In this document: positions 40,132 through 47,596 of the stretch, in pieces
Layout: every line of letters begins with the position of its first letter
Position numbering within the stretch: the first letter of the stretch is position 1
NCBI GenBank assembly: GCA_900475325.1
Contig: LS483371.1
Coordinates: 3,534,001 to 3,598,000, forward strand
Direction of reading: 5' to 3'
Source of the DNA: Paucimonas lemoignei
GTDB taxonomy: Bacteria > Pseudomonadota > Gammaproteobacteria > Pseudomonadales > Pseudomonadaceae
Length of the DNA: 64,000 nt
The notes under the pieces: generated by a model
Seen by the model: only the letters and a program-made list of their open reading frames with translations
Told to the model about the DNA's origin: nothing
Database searches by the model: none
Program-made: the position numbers and the translations under genes

Positions 40132-40881
40132 ATGCTTCTCCAAGGCAAAATCGCAATCATCACCGGTGCGGCATCGGCACGCGGCATCGGCCGGGCGACC
40201 GCCGTGACCTTCGCGCAACAAGGCGCACGGGTCGTGATCATCGACCTGGATGAAGGCGCCGCACGTGACGCCGCCGCTGAGTTGGGCGAAGGGCATCTGG
40301 GCCTCTCTGCCAACGTCGCTGACGAATTCCAGGTGCAGGCTGCAGTCGCCAAAGTCATCGAGCACTTCGGCCGCATTGATGTGCTGATCAATAACGCAGG
40401 CATTACCCAACCCATCAAGACCCTGGATATACGGCCGTCGGACTACGACAAAGTGCTGGATGTCAGCCTGCGTGGCACGTTGCTGATGTCCCAGGCGGTG
40501 ATCCCCACCATGCGGGCTCAGTCCTCGGGCAGCATCGTGTGCATGTCGTCAGTATCGGCCCAACGTGGCGGCGGTATTTTCGGCGGCCCCCACTACAGCG
40601 CGGCCAAGGCCGGTGTACTCGGCCTGGGCAAGGCCATGGCCCGTGAGTTTGGCCCGAACAACATTCGCATCAACTCCATCGCCCCGGGCTTGATCCACAC
40701 CGATATCACCGGCGGCCTGATGCAGGACGAACGCCGCCACGCCATCATCGAAGGCATTCCGCTGGGCCGATTGGGCGCCGCGCAGGATGTTGCCAATGCG
40801 GCGCTGTTTCTGGCCAGTGACCTGTCTTCATACCTCACCGGCATCACGCTGGATGTAAACGGCGGTATGTTGATTCACTGA
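40132..40881 (+). CDS. Classical SDR oxidoreductase
   Basis: A 249-residue classical short-chain dehydrogenase/reductase. The cofactor loop is ITGAASARGIGRATAV, with an acidic DLDE after strand 2 (favouring NAD). NNAG, the active-site serine in CMSSVSA and YSAAKAG (Tyr-x3-Lys) are all present. The tail ITLDVNGGML is standard. The extra residues in ASARGIG are unusual for the loop. It heads an operon with an ACS-type carrier and a split transketolase, so it probably oxidises an imported sugar, polyol or hydroxy acid to a ketone (inference). ATG 40132 has AGAGGAAA upstream. Confidence 0.92.
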   Translation: MLLQGKIAIITGAASARGIGRATAVTFAQQGARVVIIDLDEGAARDAAAELGEGHLGLSANVADEFQVQAAVAKVIEHFGRIDVLINNAGITQPIKTLDIRPSDYDKVLDVSLRGTLLMSQAVIPTMRAQSSGSIVCMSSVSAQRGGGIFGGPHYSAAKAGVLGLGKAMAREFGPNNIRINSIAPGLIHTDITGGLMQDERRHAIIEGIPLGRLGAAQDVANAALFLASDLSSYLTGITLDVNGGMLIH

Positions 40882-40976
40882 TAACCACCCGCGGCCTCAG
40901 CGTCGCAGCACTGTTCTGGATCGACGATGCGCCGGGTTGCCCCTGGCGGTCTATAAAAACAAGAGATCAGACCATC

Positions 40977-42281
40977 ATGATATCCACCACCATGCCCCTC
41001 GATGCGGCTTCGGCCGTGCGCTCCAATGCTTATCGCAAAACTGCCTGGCGGCTCATGCCGTTCCTGATGCTGTGCTACCTGTGCGCTTATCTGGACCGGG
41101 TCAATGTCGGCTTCGCCAAGCTGCAGATGATGAATGACCTGGCCCTCAGCGAGGCCGTCTACGGCCTGGGTGCCGGGATGTTCTTCATCGGTTACTTCCT
41201 CTGTGAAGTCCCCAGCAATCTGATCCTTCACCGGGTCGGTGCGCGGCGCTGGATCGCTCGCATCATGATCTCGTGGGGCATCATCTCCGCCCTCTTCGCC
41301 TTCGTTGAAACCGCCTGGCAGTTCTATGGATTACGGTTTCTGCTGGGCGTTGCCGAAGCCGGTCTAGCTCCTGGCCTGCTGCTCTACCTGACCTATTGGT
41401 TCCCGTCCTATCGCCGGGCAAAAATGACCGTGCTGTGGTTCATCGCCATCCCGCTTTCCGGGATGATCGGCGGCCCGCTTTCCGGCTGGATCATGAACGC
41501 TTTCGCGGGTTATCACGGCTGGGCCGGGTGGCAATGGATGTTTGTGATTGAAGCCATTCCTACCGTTGTTGTCGGCCTCATGGTGCTGGGCTATCTCAAG
41601 GATGGCGTGCATCAGGCGACTTGGCTCACGGAGGAAGAAAAAGCCCTTATCAATAAAGAACTGGCCGAAGACAACAGCCGCAAGGTCACTCACGCTTCGG
41701 TTGGGGAGTTCATACGCGACCGTCGCTTGTGGTTGCTGGCCTGTATCTACTTCTGTGTCGTGATGGGCCAGTACGCGATCACCTTCTGGCTGCCGACGCT
41801 GATCCGCAACGCTGGCGTGTCCGACGCGCTACACATCGGCCTGATGACCAGCGTGCCGTACATGTGCGCCATCGTTGCCATGCTGTTGATGGGCCGCAGC
41901 GGCGATAAACATCGCGAGCGTCGCTGGCACCTGGTCCTGCCCATGATCGCCGGAGCGCTAGGCCTGACCCTGGCGGCGATATTCGGCTCCAACCTGCTGC
42001 TCTCGGTGCTGAGCCTGTGCCTCGCAGCCGCAGGCGTTCTCTCGGCGTCTTCGCTGTTCTGGATGTTGCCCACCACCCTGCTGGGCGGTGTGTCTGCTGC
42101 CGCAGGCATTGCGGGCATCAACAGCTTCGCCAACCTGGCGGGCTTCTGCTCGCCCTACCTGATCGGCTGGATCACCACCGCGACCGGCTCAAGCGCCATC
42201 GGCATGTACCTGATCACCGGCGTGTTGTGCATCGGTGCGTGTCTGGTCCTGCGCATCCCTGCCGACTCGGTCAATCGCTGA
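40977..42281 (+). CDS. MFS transporter, ACS family
   Basis: A 434-residue inner-membrane carrier of the anion:cation symporter group, close in motifs to the carrier at 872-2197: RLMPFLMLCYLCAYLDRVNVGFA, EVPSNLILHRVGARRWIARIM, YLTYWFPSYRRAKM. These proteins import sugar acids, tartrate or aromatic acids with protons. ATG 40977 has only a weak site; ATG 40992 is an alternative. It is the second gene of the SDR-MFS-transketolase operon, between SDR (95 bases upstream) and the transketolase N-terminal subunit (18 bases downstream). Confidence 0.9.
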   Translation: MISTTMPLDAASAVRSNAYRKTAWRLMPFLMLCYLCAYLDRVNVGFAKLQMMNDLALSEAVYGLGAGMFFIGYFLCEVPSNLILHRVGARRWIARIMISWGIISALFAFVETAWQFYGLRFLLGVAEAGLAPGLLLYLTYWFPSYRRAKMTVLWFIAIPLSGMIGGPLSGWIMNAFAGYHGWAGWQWMFVIEAIPTVVVGLMVLGYLKDGVHQATWLTEEEKALINKELAEDNSRKVTHASVGEFIRDRRLWLLACIYFCVVMGQYAITFWLPTLIRNAGVSDALHIGLMTSVPYMCAIVAMLLMGRSGDKHRERRWHLVLPMIAGALGLTLAAIFGSNLLLSVLSLCLAAAGVLSASSLFWMLPTTLLGGVSAAAGIAGINSFANLAGFCSPYLIGWITTATGSSAIGMYLITGVLCIGACLVLRIPADSVNR

Positions 42282-42299
42282 TCCCAAGGAGTATTCATC

Positions 42300-43148
42300 A
42301 TGACTGCCAATGCTTCACGCAACAGCACCACGACACTGGTGCAACGGGCTCACAACATTCGTCGCCATGCCTTGCGCATGGGTCAGGTTCAGGGTCAGGG
42401 CTACGTCGGCCAGGCCTTGGGCGCTGCCGACCTGCTGGCGGTTTCCTACTTTCATGCGCTGAACTATCGGCCCGAAGACCCTGAATGGGAACAGCGAGAT
42501 CGCTTCTATCTTTCCATCGGTCACTACGCCATCGCCCTGTATGCGGCGTTGATCGAAGCCGAAATCATCCCGCTGGAAGAACTGGAAACCTATGGGTCCG
42601 ATGACAGCCGCTTGCCGATGTCCGGCATGGCCACCTACACGCCGGGCATGGAAATCACCGGCGGCTCGCTGGGTCAGGGCCTCGGGATTGCAGTCGGCGC
42701 CTGCCTGGGTCTCAAGCGCAAGCAGTCCGGTTCATTCGTTTACAACCTGTTGTCCGATGGTGAATTGAACGAAGGCTCGACCTGGGAGGCGGTGATGTCG
42801 GCCTCGCACTGGAAGCTCGACAACCTGATCGCGATTGTCGACGTCAACAACCAGCAGGCCGACGGGTATTCAAGCGAAGTGCTCGCGTTCGAGCCCATCG
42901 TTGATCGCTGGCAGGCGTTTGGCTGGTTCACTCAGCGGGTCGACGGCAACGACCTGGACGCCCTGGTCAAGGCCTTCGATGCCGCTCGCAACCATCCGAT
43001 CCCTCAACCACGGGTGATCATCTGCGACACCAAAATGGGCAAGGGTGTGCCGTTCCTGGAAACACGGGAAAAGACTCACTTCATCCGCGTGGACGAGCAC
43101 GAATGGGATGTCGCACTGAACAACCTCGAAGCAGGGAGAACCGCATGA
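42300..43148 (+). CDS. Transketolase, N-terminal (TPP-binding) subunit
   Basis: A 282-residue protein matching the first domain of transketolase. GHxAxALY-type ISIGHYAIALYAAL (SIGHYAIALYA), SGMATYTPGMEITGGSLGQGLG, and the TPP/metal motif LSDGELNEGSTWEAVM...VDVNNQQADG are all seen. It lacks the pyrimidine-binding and C-terminal domains, which the next gene supplies. AAGGAG precedes ATG 42300. The stop overlaps the next start by four bases (ATGA), so the two subunits are coupled. A two-subunit transketolase beside an SDR and a carrier points to a dedicated catabolic route for a ketose or keto acid, not the pentose phosphate housekeeping enzyme. Confidence 0.9.
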   Translation: MTANASRNSTTTLVQRAHNIRRHALRMGQVQGQGYVGQALGAADLLAVSYFHALNYRPEDPEWEQRDRFYLSIGHYAIALYAALIEAEIIPLEELETYGSDDSRLPMSGMATYTPGMEITGGSLGQGLGIAVGACLGLKRKQSGSFVYNLLSDGELNEGSTWEAVMSASHWKLDNLIAIVDVNNQQADGYSSEVLAFEPIVDRWQAFGWFTQRVDGNDLDALVKAFDAARNHPIPQPRVIICDTKMGKGVPFLETREKTHFIRVDEHEWDVALNNLEAGRTA

Positions 43149-44167
43149 GCACTGCCAAGAACACCACGGCTGCGGCAAGCGGCGAAGTGAAGAAAAAACT
43201 CACCACCTCCGCGATGATCGCCTCGATTGCCGCCGAAGGTCAGGCCACCCGATCAGCGCCCTTCGGTCATGCGCTGGCAGCCTTGGCGGAGCAACGTCCG
43301 GAGATTGTCGGGCTGTCCGCTGACTTGTCCAAATACACCGACCTGCACATCTTCGCCAAAGCCCATCCGGACCGGTTCTACCAAATGGGCATGGCCGAGC
43401 AGTTGCTGATGAGCGCAGCGGCCGGCATGGCCCGGGAAGGTTGCGTACCTTTCGCGACGACCTATGCGGTGTTTGCGTCTCGCCGGGCGTATGACTTCAT
43501 CTGCATGGCCATTGCCGAAGAAAACCTCAACGTGAAAATCGTCTGTGGTCTGCCAGGCCTCACCACGGGCTACGGCCCCAGCCACCAGGCGACCGACGAC
43601 CTGGCGATTTTTCGCGCCATGCCCAACCTGATGATTGTCGACCCCTGCGACGCACTGGAAATCGAGCAAGCCGTCCCCGCGATTGCCGCCCACCAGGGCC
43701 CGGTGTACATGCGTCTGCTGCGCGGAAACGTGCCGTTGGTGCTGGATGAATACGGCTATCAGTTCGAGATAGGCAAAGCCAAAACCCTGCGCACCGGCAA
43801 CGACGTGCTGATCATCTCCACCGGGCTGATGACGATGCGCGCACTGGAAGCGGCCAAGCAACTACAGGCTGATGGCGTGGACGTTGCGGTGCTGCATGTG
43901 CCCACCATCAAACCCCTGGACGAACAGACGATTCTGGCTGAAGCCCGCAAGTCGGGTCGCCTGGTGGTCACCGCCGAGAACCATTCGATCATCGGTGGTT
44001 TGGGTGAAGCTGTCGCAACGGTTTTGTTGCGCAATGGCGTGACGCCGACCTTCAGGCAAATCGCCCTGCCCGATGCCTTCCTTGATGCGGGGGCACTTCC
44101 GACGTTGCATGACCGTTATGGGATCTCCACCGCAGCGGTGTGTACGCAAATCAAAAGCTGGTTGTAG
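43145..44167 (+). CDS. Transketolase, C-terminal subunit
   Basis: A 340-residue protein equal to the middle and last transketolase domains. The pyrimidine-binding domain contains IVGLSADLSKYTDLHIFAKAHPDRFYQMGMAEQ (with the catalytic glutamate in MAEQ), FATTYAVFASRRAYDFI and GPSHQATDDLAIFRAMPNL. The C-terminal domain has DVLIISTGLMTMRALEAA and TAENHSIIGGLGEAVA. ATG 43145 overlaps the stop of the N-terminal subunit. A good terminator follows the gene. Sugar specificity cannot be read; DXS-like or pyruvate dehydrogenase E1 beta are poorer matches. Confidence 0.92.
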   Translation: MSTAKNTTAAASGEVKKKLTTSAMIASIAAEGQATRSAPFGHALAALAEQRPEIVGLSADLSKYTDLHIFAKAHPDRFYQMGMAEQLLMSAAAGMAREGCVPFATTYAVFASRRAYDFICMAIAEENLNVKIVCGLPGLTTGYGPSHQATDDLAIFRAMPNLMIVDPCDALEIEQAVPAIAAHQGPVYMRLLRGNVPLVLDEYGYQFEIGKAKTLRTGNDVLIISTGLMTMRALEAAKQLQADGVDVAVLHVPTIKPLDEQTILAEARKSGRLVVTAENHSIIGGLGEAVATVLLRNGVTPTFRQIALPDAFLDAGALPTLHDRYGISTAAVCTQIKSWL

Positions 44168-44295: not shown

Positions 44296-44649
44296 ATGGG
44301 GGACGGAGTGGTGTCTTTTCAAACTGCCAAACGCTGGACGATCCGAGCGTCGCTGGTTTCGGTAGCCTGCCTGGGACTGGTTTTCTGGCTCGACAGCGCA
44401 TTGGCACCTAATGAATACAGCATGGAAAATATCAGCCCTAATGCATTCAAGGATGGCAAGGTCGAATTCTTCATCCCCTGGACAGGCGGTGACACCGGGA
44501 TCTGCGACGTAGACTCGGAGCACGCCCGCTCAACGTACCCACCGGGTTCAAATGTGCTGATTAGCCAAACCCCGATTCTGGACAGATGCAAGCTCGCGCC
44601 ACTGCCCGCTGGATGGAAGCCTCCGCCGATGTGCTGCGATCTGCATTGA
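44296..44649 (+). CDS. Hypothetical membrane-anchored small protein
   Basis: A 117-residue reading frame of unknown function. One hydrophobic segment near residues 18-34 (SLVSVACLGLVFWLDSA) looks like an N-terminal membrane anchor or uncleaved signal. The remaining part is polar with four cysteines (ICDV, DRCKL, and the CC of MCCDL), consistent with a periplasmic or extracytoplasmic domain. The start is unclear: ATG 44296 lacks a ribosome site, while GTG 44311 is too close to GGAG. A shorter frame on the other strand overlaps, but this strand fits the neighbours' direction and codon use. It precedes the diiron-enzyme operon by 130 bases. Confidence 0.5.
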   Translation: MGDGVVSFQTAKRWTIRASLVSVACLGLVFWLDSALAPNEYSMENISPNAFKDGKVEFFIPWTGGDTGICDVDSEHARSTYPPGSNVLISQTPILDRCKLAPLPAGWKPPPMCCDLH

Positions 44650-44778
44650 ATTTCCCAATGGAAATACTGCAAAGCTGGGTGAGTGCTGGCGACGATTTCA
44701 CCACTCAGCGATTTCAATGGAATTTATTTCCACCCCGGTTCCTCTGAGCTTATATCAAGAAAAATCAGTGGTACCTTT

Positions 44779-46146
44779 ATGACCGTCTTACGCCAGATTG
44801 CACTGCACCCTGCCCAGCCCCAGGCGGAATCCGGGGCTGCATCGACCTTGTATCGCGCCCTGATGACGGGCGCTTCGCCCGCTGATCAACCGCAGCTGCG
44901 GGCATTCCTTCAAGAGCACTTGCAGCACGTTGATGGCGCTCAGTGCGAGTTGCCCATTCGGGTTGAGGAGTGGCCAGCCTGGGTTGCCGAGCATGCCAGC
45001 ACCGTCGGTGAGCAGTACGCCGAGTACCTCGCGCAACGCCATGCGGGTGGGCCTCGTCGGTTCTTCACCAGTAAGGCCCATGCGTTGTATTTTCTTCAGC
45101 ATGTGGCACCGAGCAAACTGGTGGACGGCGCCTGGTTGCACGGTACAACCCGGCACGCTGCCGACTGGCGCTATCACGGCCTTATCCGCACCTACCTTGA
45201 GGAGCTGGGGGATGGTGAACCGGCCTTGAACCATGTGGTGCTATACCGAAACCTGCTCACGGAGCACGACTGCGCACCTGATCAAACGCTGCCGGAAGAC
45301 CGCTATCTGCAAGGCGCCCTGCAACTGGCGCTCGGTGAGTGCGCCGATGAATTCCTGCCGGAAGTCATCGGCTACAACCTGGGCTACGAGCAACTGCCAC
45401 TGCACTTGCTGATCACTGCATTCGAGCTGAACGAGTTGGGTATCGATCCTTACTATTTCACCTTGCACGTGACCATCGACAACGCCAGTTCAGGCCACGC
45501 CAAAAAGGCGGTCGAGACGGTCAGCCAATTCCTGGCAACCGCCGAGGATCCCGATCAATTTCTCGCTCGAGTGCGTAACGGCTACCAGCTCAACGACCTT
45601 GGCGCAGGCACCACGGCCGTCATTGGCGCGTTTGATCTGGAGCGCGAAGTGGTGGCCATGCTGGAGAGCAAGCGCTCCTTTGGTCAGCACATGCATTCCG
45701 ATTACTGCCGCCTTGAAGGCCGTACCATTAACGAGTGGCTGGCCGCGCCGGGGCAATGCCGAGCATTCCTGGCGGCACTTGAAAATAAAAGCTGGATCAA
45801 GCGCGGCCAGGACCCGAGCCTCAGCCGGTTCTGGCAGCTCATCGATGGGCCGGGTGCGGTAATGTTCGGGGTGTTCAACGGCTATGAAAAGCAGTTGATC
45901 CGCGACTGGATCTGCGCAGACTGGCAACCCGAGAAAACCGACACGCAACCTTTTCGCGCGCGCTTTCGCAAGCGCCCGGTCGTCGTGCCCGCAGTAGCGT
46001 CAGAAGCGCCTGCGGTGGGCAATGCCACGCCTGCGCAGCTGGCAGCACTGGTCGATCTGATCTCCCCTGCCCGGCATCACACGCCTGAGGGGCTGACCGC
46101 CACCCGCACCTACGCCAGCCAACTCGCCCGAGGACTTTTCCGATGA
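44779..46146 (+). CDS. Haem-oxygenase-like diiron enzyme (iron-containing redox enzyme family)
   Basis: A 455-residue protein whose middle part (about 130-280) looks like the haem-oxygenase-like diiron oxidase/oxygenase fold (relatives of UndA, BesC, SznF). His230-x3-Asp234-x5-His240 in FTLHVTIDNASSGH, together with glutamates at about 204 and 216-219, is the expected iron-ligand pattern. The last 130 residues contain a proline/alanine linker and a segment not recognised. Such enzymes perform unusual C-C cleavage, N-oxygenation or desaturation in natural-product pathways. ATG 44779 was chosen; the frame reaches GTG 44683. The stop overlaps the methyltransferase start by four bases (ATGA). Confidence 0.78.
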   Translation: MTVLRQIALHPAQPQAESGAASTLYRALMTGASPADQPQLRAFLQEHLQHVDGAQCELPIRVEEWPAWVAEHASTVGEQYAEYLAQRHAGGPRRFFTSKAHALYFLQHVAPSKLVDGAWLHGTTRHAADWRYHGLIRTYLEELGDGEPALNHVVLYRNLLTEHDCAPDQTLPEDRYLQGALQLALGECADEFLPEVIGYNLGYEQLPLHLLITAFELNELGIDPYYFTLHVTIDNASSGHAKKAVETVSQFLATAEDPDQFLARVRNGYQLNDLGAGTTAVIGAFDLEREVVAMLESKRSFGQHMHSDYCRLEGRTINEWLAAPGQCRAFLAALENKSWIKRGQDPSLSRFWQLIDGPGAVMFGVFNGYEKQLIRDWICADWQPEKTDTQPFRARFRKRPVVVPAVASEAPAVGNATPAQLAALVDLISPARHHTPEGLTATRTYASQLARGLFR

Positions 46147-47129
46147 GCAATCTACAGATCACTCCCCAGGCCTTCGACGAGACTGCGGCCTCGGACCAGT
46201 CTCATGACCTGGCGTTGCTGCAACTGGGGCGCAGGCTGCAAGCCGATGAGTACAGCTTCATCACCGTGACGCCCCTGAGCCATCAGCGTAATAACGCGCG
46301 GGACGCGAATCGTATCTCCAAAAACCTGCGGGACATCTTCGGCTGGAACCGCCCTTTTGAGCACGACCTGCTACCCGTTGCCGAGCGGCAGGCGCTGCTG
46401 GCCGCCGACGTGCTGCGCGCCCATGCAGGGCTGTGGACCAGTAAAGTGCGCTGGTCGAGCCTCGACGATCTGTTGTTCGTCCACTCCGGTTTTCCAACGT
46501 TGGCTCACGACTCAGTGTTCTTCGGGCCCGACACCTATCGCTTCGCCCAAGCCATTGAAGAGCACCTGCGCACCTCGATGCACCCGATCAAAAACGCAGT
46601 GGATATCGGCTGCGGCAGTGGCGTTGGGGCTATCCTGATCGGCCGGGCACGTCGCGACGCTCAAGTGCTCGCGCTGGACATCAACCCGACTGCGCTGCGA
46701 TACACCGCCGTCAATGCAGCGCTGGCCGGAACCGAAAACGTCTCGGCCTGGCACAGCGATATCCTTGACGGTGCGTCCGGGGAATTCGATCTGATCGTGG
46801 CCAACCCCCCTTACATGCAGGACACCCAGCAGCGCGCCTATCGGCACGGCGGTGAACGGCTGGGGTCAGAGTTGTCAGTGCGTATCGTCCAGCAGGCGGT
46901 CAAGCGACTGGCGGTTGGCGGCACCCTGCTGCTGTACACCGGCGCGCCTTCGGTCAATGGCGTGGACCTGTTTCTGGAAAGCGCTCGCCAATGGGTCGAT
47001 GTGCCCGGCATGGCGTGGAGCTACCGCGAAATGGACCCGGATGTGTTTGGCGAAGAGCTGGAGACCGCCACCTACGCCGAAGCTGAACGGATTGCAGCCG
47101 TGGTGCTGACCGTGACGCGCACGCACTGA
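46143..47129 (+). CDS. Class I SAM-dependent methyltransferase (NPPY type)
   Basis: A 328-residue methyltransferase. The SAM-binding motif is VDIGCGSGVGAILIG (residues 153-167), with LALDINPTALRYTAVNA as motif II and the substrate amide-binding VANPPYM (NPPY at 221-224), as in PrmC/HemK and N6-adenine/N5-glutamine methylases. The 140-residue N-terminal region is helical and specific to this protein. It overlaps the diiron-enzyme gene by four bases and the DCC gene by one base (TGATG). An acceptor with an amine or amide nitrogen is suggested by the NPPY motif; a small-molecule target is favoured by context only. Confidence 0.85.
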   Translation: MSNLQITPQAFDETAASDQSHDLALLQLGRRLQADEYSFITVTPLSHQRNNARDANRISKNLRDIFGWNRPFEHDLLPVAERQALLAADVLRAHAGLWTSKVRWSSLDDLLFVHSGFPTLAHDSVFFGPDTYRFAQAIEEHLRTSMHPIKNAVDIGCGSGVGAILIGRARRDAQVLALDINPTALRYTAVNAALAGTENVSAWHSDILDGASGEFDLIVANPPYMQDTQQRAYRHGGERLGSELSVRIVQQAVKRLAVGGTLLLYTGAPSVNGVDLFLESARQWVDVPGMAWSYREMDPDVFGEELETATYAEAERIAAVVLTVTRTH

Positions 47130-47596
47130 TGCAACCGAAACAAAACAATGCCCCGGCCCCGCTGCTCAACCCCGGCGACAACGTGGTGCTGTTCGACGGC
47201 ACCTGCAAGCTGTGCAATGGCTGGGCACGGTTCGTGATTGCCCACGATCGGGCCCGGCATATCCAGTTGGCAGCCGTGCAGTCGCCCCAGGGACAGGCGT
47301 TGTTGAAGTGGGCCGGATTACCGCAGGATCAGTTCAACACCATCGTCTTTATCTCGAACGGCCAGGTATTTATCCGCTCCCAGGCGATGTTCGAGATCCT
47401 CGCCCGCTTGCCCGCCCCCTGGCGCTGGCTGACCGTCGCTCGCGTTGTTCCGCAAGCACTGCGGGACTGGATGTACGACAGGATCGCGTTGAATCGCTAT
47501 CGGCTGTTCGGCCGATATGACGCCTGCCAGCTCCCGACGGCTGATCACCCGCAGCGTTTTTTGCAACCCCTGCCCCAGTCGTCTGTAGGCGAATAA
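47129..47596 (+). CDS. DCC family thiol-disulfide oxidoreductase-like protein
   Basis: A 155-residue thioredoxin-fold protein of the DCC (YuxK) family. It is named for the N-terminal motif seen here as LFDGTCKLCNGWARFV, with Cys26-x2-Cys29. Later family features are IQLAAVQSPQGQALL, FNTIVFISNGQVFIRSQAM and LPAPWRWLTVARVVPQALRDWMYDRIALNRYRLFG. It is expected to be a cytosolic or membrane-associated redox partner of unknown role. ATG 47129 overlaps the methyltransferase stop by one base. The three-gene string suggests a shared product or cofactor step. Confidence 0.85.
   Translation: MQPKQNNAPAPLLNPGDNVVLFDGTCKLCNGWARFVIAHDRARHIQLAAVQSPQGQALLKWAGLPQDQFNTIVFISNGQVFIRSQAMFEILARLPAPWRWLTVARVVPQALRDWMYDRIALNRYRLFGRYDACQLPTADHPQRFLQPLPQSSVGE

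Follow-up and report, generated by a model that had tools for sequence, protein, structure and literature searches.

A DtpC-like oxidase gene and a methyltransferase gene recur as an adjacent pair in Pseudomonas and may act in stress protection

RESULTS

The window analysed here is a 64,000-nucleotide stretch of the Paucimonas lemoignei genome (contig LS483371.1, positions 3,534,001 to 3,598,000), which is 5.92 Mb long and forms a single contig. Two overlapping + strand genes are its subject: HDO1 (44779-46146), encoding a haem-oxygenase-like di-iron oxidase (HDO) of 455 amino acids (aa), and a gene for a class I S-adenosylmethionine (SAM)-dependent methyltransferase of 328 aa (MTase; 46143-47129). 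The pair is real and recurring, with an adjacency far beyond chance, and by sequence comparison HDO1 is a homologue of DtpC, a protectant of Acinetobacter baumannii. With about even confidence, we read the two genes as a stress-protection module in which the DtpC-family HDO1 would N-oxygenate a basic metabolite, the MTase would methylate the same molecule, and the product would protect the cell.

Locus counts given "of 80" refer to the best 80 of 582 confirmed stretches, all from Pseudomonas. Adjacency and marker counts were made by tblastn rather than by clustering of neighbouring genes, because the length-greedy gene caller behind the clustering made some wrong-frame calls. The MTase gene lies directly 3' of HDO1 in 79 of the 80 loci, and at 30 of the 75 loci measured the HDO1 stop codon shares an ATGA with a potential start of the MTase. 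Distances within the two families are strongly correlated (r = 0.90 over 79 rows, namely 78 loci and the window, after exclusion of loci with too short an MTase or HDO segment). HDO1 itself is patchy, being present in 38/95 relatives (own genome included), in 7/274 genomes of the class (three at E < 1e-100) and in 15/299 genomes of the phylum (12 at E < 1e-100). Of the 12 phylum genomes that have HDO1 at full length, 10 also carry the MTase, versus 3 of the 287 others. Two loci depart from this beside an HDO1 matched along its length: in L083 (9427-10339) the MTase is split over three frames, and in L096 no MTase was found downstream of 9359. Pseudomonas sp. LS-2 (L043, L060) and Pseudomonas sp. 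v388 (L055, L079) carry two pairs each. Distant relatives (L023/L028, L024, L026/L027, L038-L040) are often long frames of ~700-820 aa with an HDO1-like stretch; L024 has two such stretches, and L026/L027, a single place, has neighbouring frames of 302 and 441 aa.

The initial annotation had assigned the pair to a three-gene pathway with a DCC1-like thiol-disulphide oxidoreductase (47129-47596, + strand, 155 aa). The three reading frames and their overlaps of 4 bases (ATGA, HDO1/MTase) and 1 base (TGATG, MTase/DCC) are as it described, and Pfam bears out the families: Haem_oxygenas_2 for HDO1 (PF14518; 1.9e-27, 96.6 bits versus a cut-off of 28.9; residues 104-271), MTS for the MTase (2.3e-16; NPPY motif at 46803-46814) and PF04134 for the third protein (8.6e-32, 111.2 bits versus a cut-off of 27.8). 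The expectation that all three families co-occur held for HDO1 and the MTase and failed for DCC. The annotation had held that absence of the trio outside close relatives would speak against a shared pathway, and this is what we found: beyond the window, DCC adjoins the pair at just 1/80 loci, L041, the window's closest relative. The DCC gene is common (27/67 relatives, own genome included); it lies away from the pair in G019, G020 and G026, the genomes with positions compared, and is present without HDO1 in G008, G012, G018, G021 and G041. We therefore leave DCC out of the recurring unit and regard it as a local addition, co-linear here. The annotation had also suggested that a 117-aa protein encoded just upstream might belong. 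This open reading frame (ORF; 44296-44649, + strand) has a hydrophobic N-terminal stretch and no Pfam match, and none of the 80 loci matches its product, so we reject it as a member.

HDO1 is predicted to bind two irons and activate O2. Its putative ligand set comprises three His and three carboxylates, E142 (45202-45204), H152 (45232-45234), E204 (45388-45390), H230 (45466-45468), D234 (45478-45480) and H240 (45496-45498), all on the + strand and all invariant in 79/79 rows, as the initial annotation had anticipated for the last three; many further residues are also invariant. The C-terminal third, previously described as unrecognised, does lie beyond the Pfam match, yet it aligns across relatives. 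The structure prediction called for earlier was made with AlphaFold2 (AF2) and gave a model with a predicted local distance difference test score (pLDDT) of 87.3 and the HDO helical fold. Two more PF14518 proteins are encoded in the same genome (G000:C1:4457801-4458331 and 5749293-5749742; L135, L136); neither has a tblastn match at E 0.01 to HDO1 or to HDO2, a second HDO described below.

A tblastn search of plasmid records brought up Acinetobacter homologues collinear with HDO1, some of them in A. baumannii records of chromosome size; the Acinetobacter homologue is 35% identical to HDO1 over 92% of the length. Three A. baumannii records (L138, NZ_CP104448.1, and hits H3 and H4) are filed as plasmids at 3.7-4.1 Mb and are chromosome-sized, so probably mislabelled. 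One Acinetobacter ORF, when its start is taken at the Met of MPVV, has Glu143, His153 and His232 and, judged by eye, stops 54 bp before a catalase-like ORF. This distance and these residues agree with the catalase spacing and the mutated residues reported for DtpC (PMC13232832), and we take the ORF to be DtpC. In the numbering given there, DtpC E143, H153 and H232 correspond to E142, H152 and H230 of HDO1. DtpC (ABUW_2437), the A. baumannii desiccation tolerance protein C, protects against desiccation and oxidative stress; a 2026 publication presented it as the first HDO tied to both, with its mechanism explicitly open, and reports that each of the three ligand residues is required and that either DtpC or KatE is enough for the cells to survive desiccation and to keep H2O2 low (PMC13232832). 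By homology, HDO1 may be protective in the window's host as well.

The MTase scores far below the curated NCBIfam cut-offs for PrmC/HemK (74.8 versus 199.1 for PrmC; 58 versus 115.5; 55.6 versus 229.7), which rules it out as an equivalog of these enzymes. It has its own N-terminal region and the subfamily signatures FGPD[ST]YRF-like and E.DPD.F-like, and the subfamily currently carries generic names only (class I SAM-dependent methyltransferase, release-factor methylase). Surveys at E <= 1e-20 with three different queries found it in 13/299, 5/337, 2/199 and 12/200 genomes, 28 different genomes in all. Within ~2 kb it is partnered by HDO1 in nine, by HDO2 in 13 and by a GntA-type protein in two, so that N-oxygenase-type genes stand beside it in 24/28 genomes. 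HDO2 (~300 residues) aligns with HDO1 at marginal scores at best; it is clearly related to HrmI (6e-46), and its matches to FlcD (2e-6), SznF (1e-4), RohS and BesC are far weaker. It adjoins the MTase on Komagataeibacter, Sphingobium, Variovorax and Legionella plasmids; of 22 plasmid records matched by the MTase, five were examined, four with HDO2 (L145-L148) and one without (L149). The latter, a Novosphingobium plasmid, carries its MTase within a few kb of genes annotated as Cas1 and Cas9.

In G500 and G1079 a GntA-type protein scoring over the NCBIfam cut-off takes the place of the HDO. GntA is a member of the YqcI/YcgG haem proteins, for which PMC10849742 calls guanidine N-oxygenation an emerging feature and reports that a member replaces the HDO of SznF in the chalkophomycin pathway. 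Since the same HDO-to-haem-enzyme replacement occurs beside one MTase subfamily, we read HDO1 as a probable N-oxygenase; the partner swap is the strongest hint of this, by analogy. In an MTase tree of 37 hand-chosen rows the partner labels cluster (7 changes versus a minimum of 3), and as its backbone is unresolved we claim no direction of exchange. Of the loci with a GntA-type haem N-hydroxylase beside the MTase (L155, L254), L155 additionally carries genes for an EgtD equivalog and a Mn-catalase-like protein, and L254 encodes a protein resembling urea-amidolyase-associated proteins.

Stress genes are frequent near HDO1. We searched within 8 kb for a panel of ten markers (LigD, Ku, KatE, DUF892, YsnF, OtsA, DUF2171, DUF421, CinA and Hsp20) with probes taken from plasmid annotations plus the window's Hsp20, with 60 fixed-coordinate regions from 20 genomes of the genus as controls. 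At least one marker was present at 38/80 loci versus 1/60 controls, an association rather than 38 events, because the loci share ancestry and the statistics overstate their independence. Adding Mn-catalase and DUF4142 raised the count to 46/80 versus 1/60; the probes for these two, as for GCS2, ZnADH and a DUF533-like protein, were derived from the test loci themselves. Individually, Mn-catalase occurred at 14/80, DUF4142 at 12/80 and DUF892 at 6/80 loci, each versus 0/60 controls, and short-chain dehydrogenase/reductase (SDR) genes were not enriched (9/80 versus 7/60). On Acinetobacter plasmids the HDO lies between catalase and trehalose genes. The LigD neighbourhood prompted a guess that PA2136-PA2138 of P. 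aeruginosa might be the homologous locus; a literature search for these tags found nothing, and the guess was dropped.

A promoter-like motif, GAATTT-N17-TCTGA (44720-44747, + strand), lies 5' of HDO1 and separates it from the 117-aa ORF. The form GAATT[TA]-N16/17-TC[TA][GC] is present in 56/81 HDO1 upstream regions versus 23/4050 random segments from the same loci, and it resembles the consensus of extracytoplasmic function (ECF)/AlgU-type promoters. The strict form has just two occurrences in the 5.92-Mb genome, equal to a reversed-pattern control (1+1), so we dropped the idea of a regulon and claim none. The HDO1 frame is open further 5' to a possible GTG start at 44683; position 44779 appears the better start, as the close homologue P0002 begins at the equivalent Met and the motif lies between the two candidates. 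Further upstream (40132-44167), an SDR gene, a major facilitator superfamily (MFS) transporter gene and a split transketolase (282 + 354 aa), with functions judged by eye, stand in a row that resembles a cluster for the catabolism of sugars or sugar acids.

Hints to the substrate come from neighbouring genes. On a Legionella sainthelensi conjugative plasmid (L148, 5035-12855), a fusion of a DDAH/arginine-dihydrolase-like domain to the MTase is followed by HDO2, LigD and Ku. The Legionella domain comes nearest to models of dimethylargininase (5e-31, below the cut-off) and of arginine dihydrolase (1e-22), and its best PDB match is Sll1336 (6e-15). Cyanophycin synthetase and cyanophycinase, which serve the storage and release of Asp-Arg, adjoin the MTase in Sphingobium, G640, G1188 and G1208, and HDO1 in G641. 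YbdK/GCS2 amide-ligase genes occur at 8/80 Pseudomonas loci versus 0/60 controls and also in L163, L166 and L167, and PurD-like ATP-grasp amide-ligase genes in L169, L170 and L171. An arginine-family substrate for the window enzyme is our guess. The EgtD, SET, GCS2 and PurD-like neighbours could not be fitted together into a single route.

DISCUSSION

The stress-protection module proposed above draws on the recurrence of the pair, the DtpC homology, the stress-gene neighbourhood, the N-oxygenase-like fold and the exchangeable N-oxygenase-type partners of the MTase, all of them computed here. HDO1 would most likely N-oxygenate a basic, possibly guanidino (arginine-family) metabolite, its side-chain nitrogen being hydroxylated through a di-iron peroxo intermediate. 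The translationally coupled MTase would methylate the same small molecule before or after this step, and the N-oxygenated product may curb slow damage by peroxide and iron (Fenton-type) in cells that are dry or not growing.

Fold comparison leans towards N-oxygenases, more clearly by one method than by the other. By VIA-align the nearest solved folds to the HDO1 model are HrmI and RohS, and N-oxygenases take all of the top 11 rows (Z gap 15.8 to 14.0, over model residues ~14-300 only and hence not the C-terminal third), with the limits that Z rises with aligned length and that fold likeness does not prove reaction type. Foldseek placed HrmI first and alone clearly ahead. These limits and the following points weigh against our reading. 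Foldseek gave no match at E <= 0.001, RohS was not among the 50 matches listed, and an HDO1 profile had no sequence match to any solved HDO chain in the PDB. HDO1, HDO2 and HrmI share the E-x9-H and H-x3-D register; the motif in the third core helix of HDO1, H-x3-D-x5-H, exceeds that of HDO2 and HrmI by three residues, which sets the last His, H240, three positions further on and makes its ligand role a prediction. This helix also breaks in the AF2 model. We noticed no electron donor for HDO1, though no search was aimed at one. Cyanophycin, arginine-hydrolase, HDO2 and GntA neighbours were found at 0/80 Pseudomonas loci, so the arginine link rests on other genera. Four of the 28 MTase genomes (G607, G641, G1208, G1243) have no N-oxygenase-type partner within 6-7 kb on each side. 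In the Acinetobacter records examined, the MTase is absent beside DtpC, with no match at 1e-15, and a chromosome-sized record gave only HemK-type matches without the subfamily signatures; HDO1 also lacks the MTase in G545, G555 and the Comamonadaceae plasmid L137, of which the plasmid only, not the chromosome, was seen. The MTase is thus not obligatory, and where HDO1 stands without it, either there is no methylation or a different enzyme carries it out. LigD makes up most of the stress signal (31/80 versus 0/60); KatE, YsnF, OtsA, DUF2171 and Acinetobacter CinA were found at 0/80 loci (the sole control match was KatE, 1/60), and the window's own locus is poorer, with only Hsp20 and SDR of the genes probed within 8 kb of HDO1. 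For DtpC, the published work reports no drying phenotype of the single deletion and no protection from acute H2O2, and leaves open iron sequestration, scavenging of reactive oxygen species (ROS) or small-molecule synthesis (PMC13232832).

HDO1 might instead protect directly, by binding Fe(II) or scavenging ROS, with the MTase as a stress-island neighbour that perhaps modifies or repairs protein or RNA. We think this possible but doubtful. It is among the options left open for DtpC, and a chelator raised the drying survival of dtpC mutants (PMC13232832); the records with HDO1 alone and the frequency of stress genes around it fit as well. A chance neighbour, however, does not explain adjacency at 79/80 loci, often with start-stop overlap, nor an MTase subfamily that elsewhere adjoins two other N-oxygenase-type enzymes, and the many invariant residues besides the ligands also argue against it. 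We consider it unlikely that the product of the pair is a specialised metabolite used in competition or signalling, on the pattern of the streptozotocin and mangotoxin pathways, and does not serve stress survival. HDOs are described as natural-product biosynthesis enzymes in PMC13108848, mangotoxin offers a comparison (PMC13185094), and some loci have ligase-type neighbours (GCS2, PurD-like ATP-grasp, cyanophycin synthetase). Yet a reading by eye of the 45 commonest clusters of neighbouring genes at the 80 loci turned up no nonribosomal peptide synthetase or polyketide synthase, the frequent neighbours are LigD, Mn-catalase, DUF4142 and DUF892, and the Acinetobacter homologue protects dried cells (PMC13232832). 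As for the original proposal of one three-gene pathway with a thiol-redox step, the gene overlaps in the window and the DCC gene after the pair in L041 speak for it, but the rarity of this arrangement and the occurrence of DCC elsewhere or without HDO1 make it very improbable. The functional link between HDO1 and the MTase is upheld, and a biosynthetic role is still plausible.

Beyond the stress-protection module itself, a broader and more tentative idea, for which we see a minor chance, is that DtpC-type HDOs and this MTase subfamily belong to an undescribed, widespread stress-metabolite pathway, in which an arginine-family molecule is methylated and N-oxygenated to a product that chelates iron or releases nitric oxide (NO) and so quenches Fenton chemistry in bacteria that are dry or not growing. 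The N-oxygenation step would fall, by lineage, to HDO1, to the HrmI-like HDO2 or to a haem YqcI/YcgG enzyme, and candidate products are N-hydroxyguanidine-, nitroso- or diazeniumdiolate-type compounds. Gramibactin makes a protective diazeniumdiolate chemically conceivable: PMC9679993 describes an arginine-derived diazeniumdiolate that binds iron and loses NO in light. The MTase partner and its exchange among three N-oxygenase types suggest a chemistry that can be tested, in which a basic substrate of amino-acid type is both methylated and N-oxygenated, and the pair points to organisms beyond Acinetobacter for a product search. If true, the proposal would name a new class of bacterial stress metabolite and explain a generically named MTase subfamily.

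The initial annotation knew of no characterised pathway with exactly these three genes. For the pair this stands, as no report of it was found in the open-licence PMC literature; the HDO family, however, has its characterised homologue in DtpC, and besides that paper no description of the family's function was found in the same literature. An expression table in PMC8304167 only names an "iron-containing redox enzyme" joined to ligase.

Compared with known systems, the MTase shares with the HemK/PrmC N5-glutamine methyltransferases the class I fold family and the NPPY motif and differs in its scores, N-terminal region and signatures; GenN is its top phmmer match in the PDB, over the core domain only. 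Unlike SznF of the SznF/SznE streptozotocin system, HDO1 has no C-terminal cupin domain fused to it by Pfam, for which reason we rejected it as an SznF-type N-nitrosourea synthase; the missing profile match to PDB HDO chains is a further difference. The GntA/YqcI_YcgG haem N-hydroxylases fill the HDO slot beside the MTase elsewhere but belong to another protein family with another cofactor and are not in the window. HrmI, the hormaomycin lysine N-oxygenase, and RohS are nearest in solved fold by VIA-align, whereas HDO1 adds its C-terminal third and the longer H-x3-D-x5-H motif. DtpC differs in its ~35% identity and, in the Acinetobacter records, in a locus without the MTase and with a catalase gene downstream, whereas the window has a coupled MTase and lacks a catalase gene within 8 kb; it is like HDO1 in being a collinear homologue with the same ligand residues, a predicted HDO domain and a stress-gene setting.

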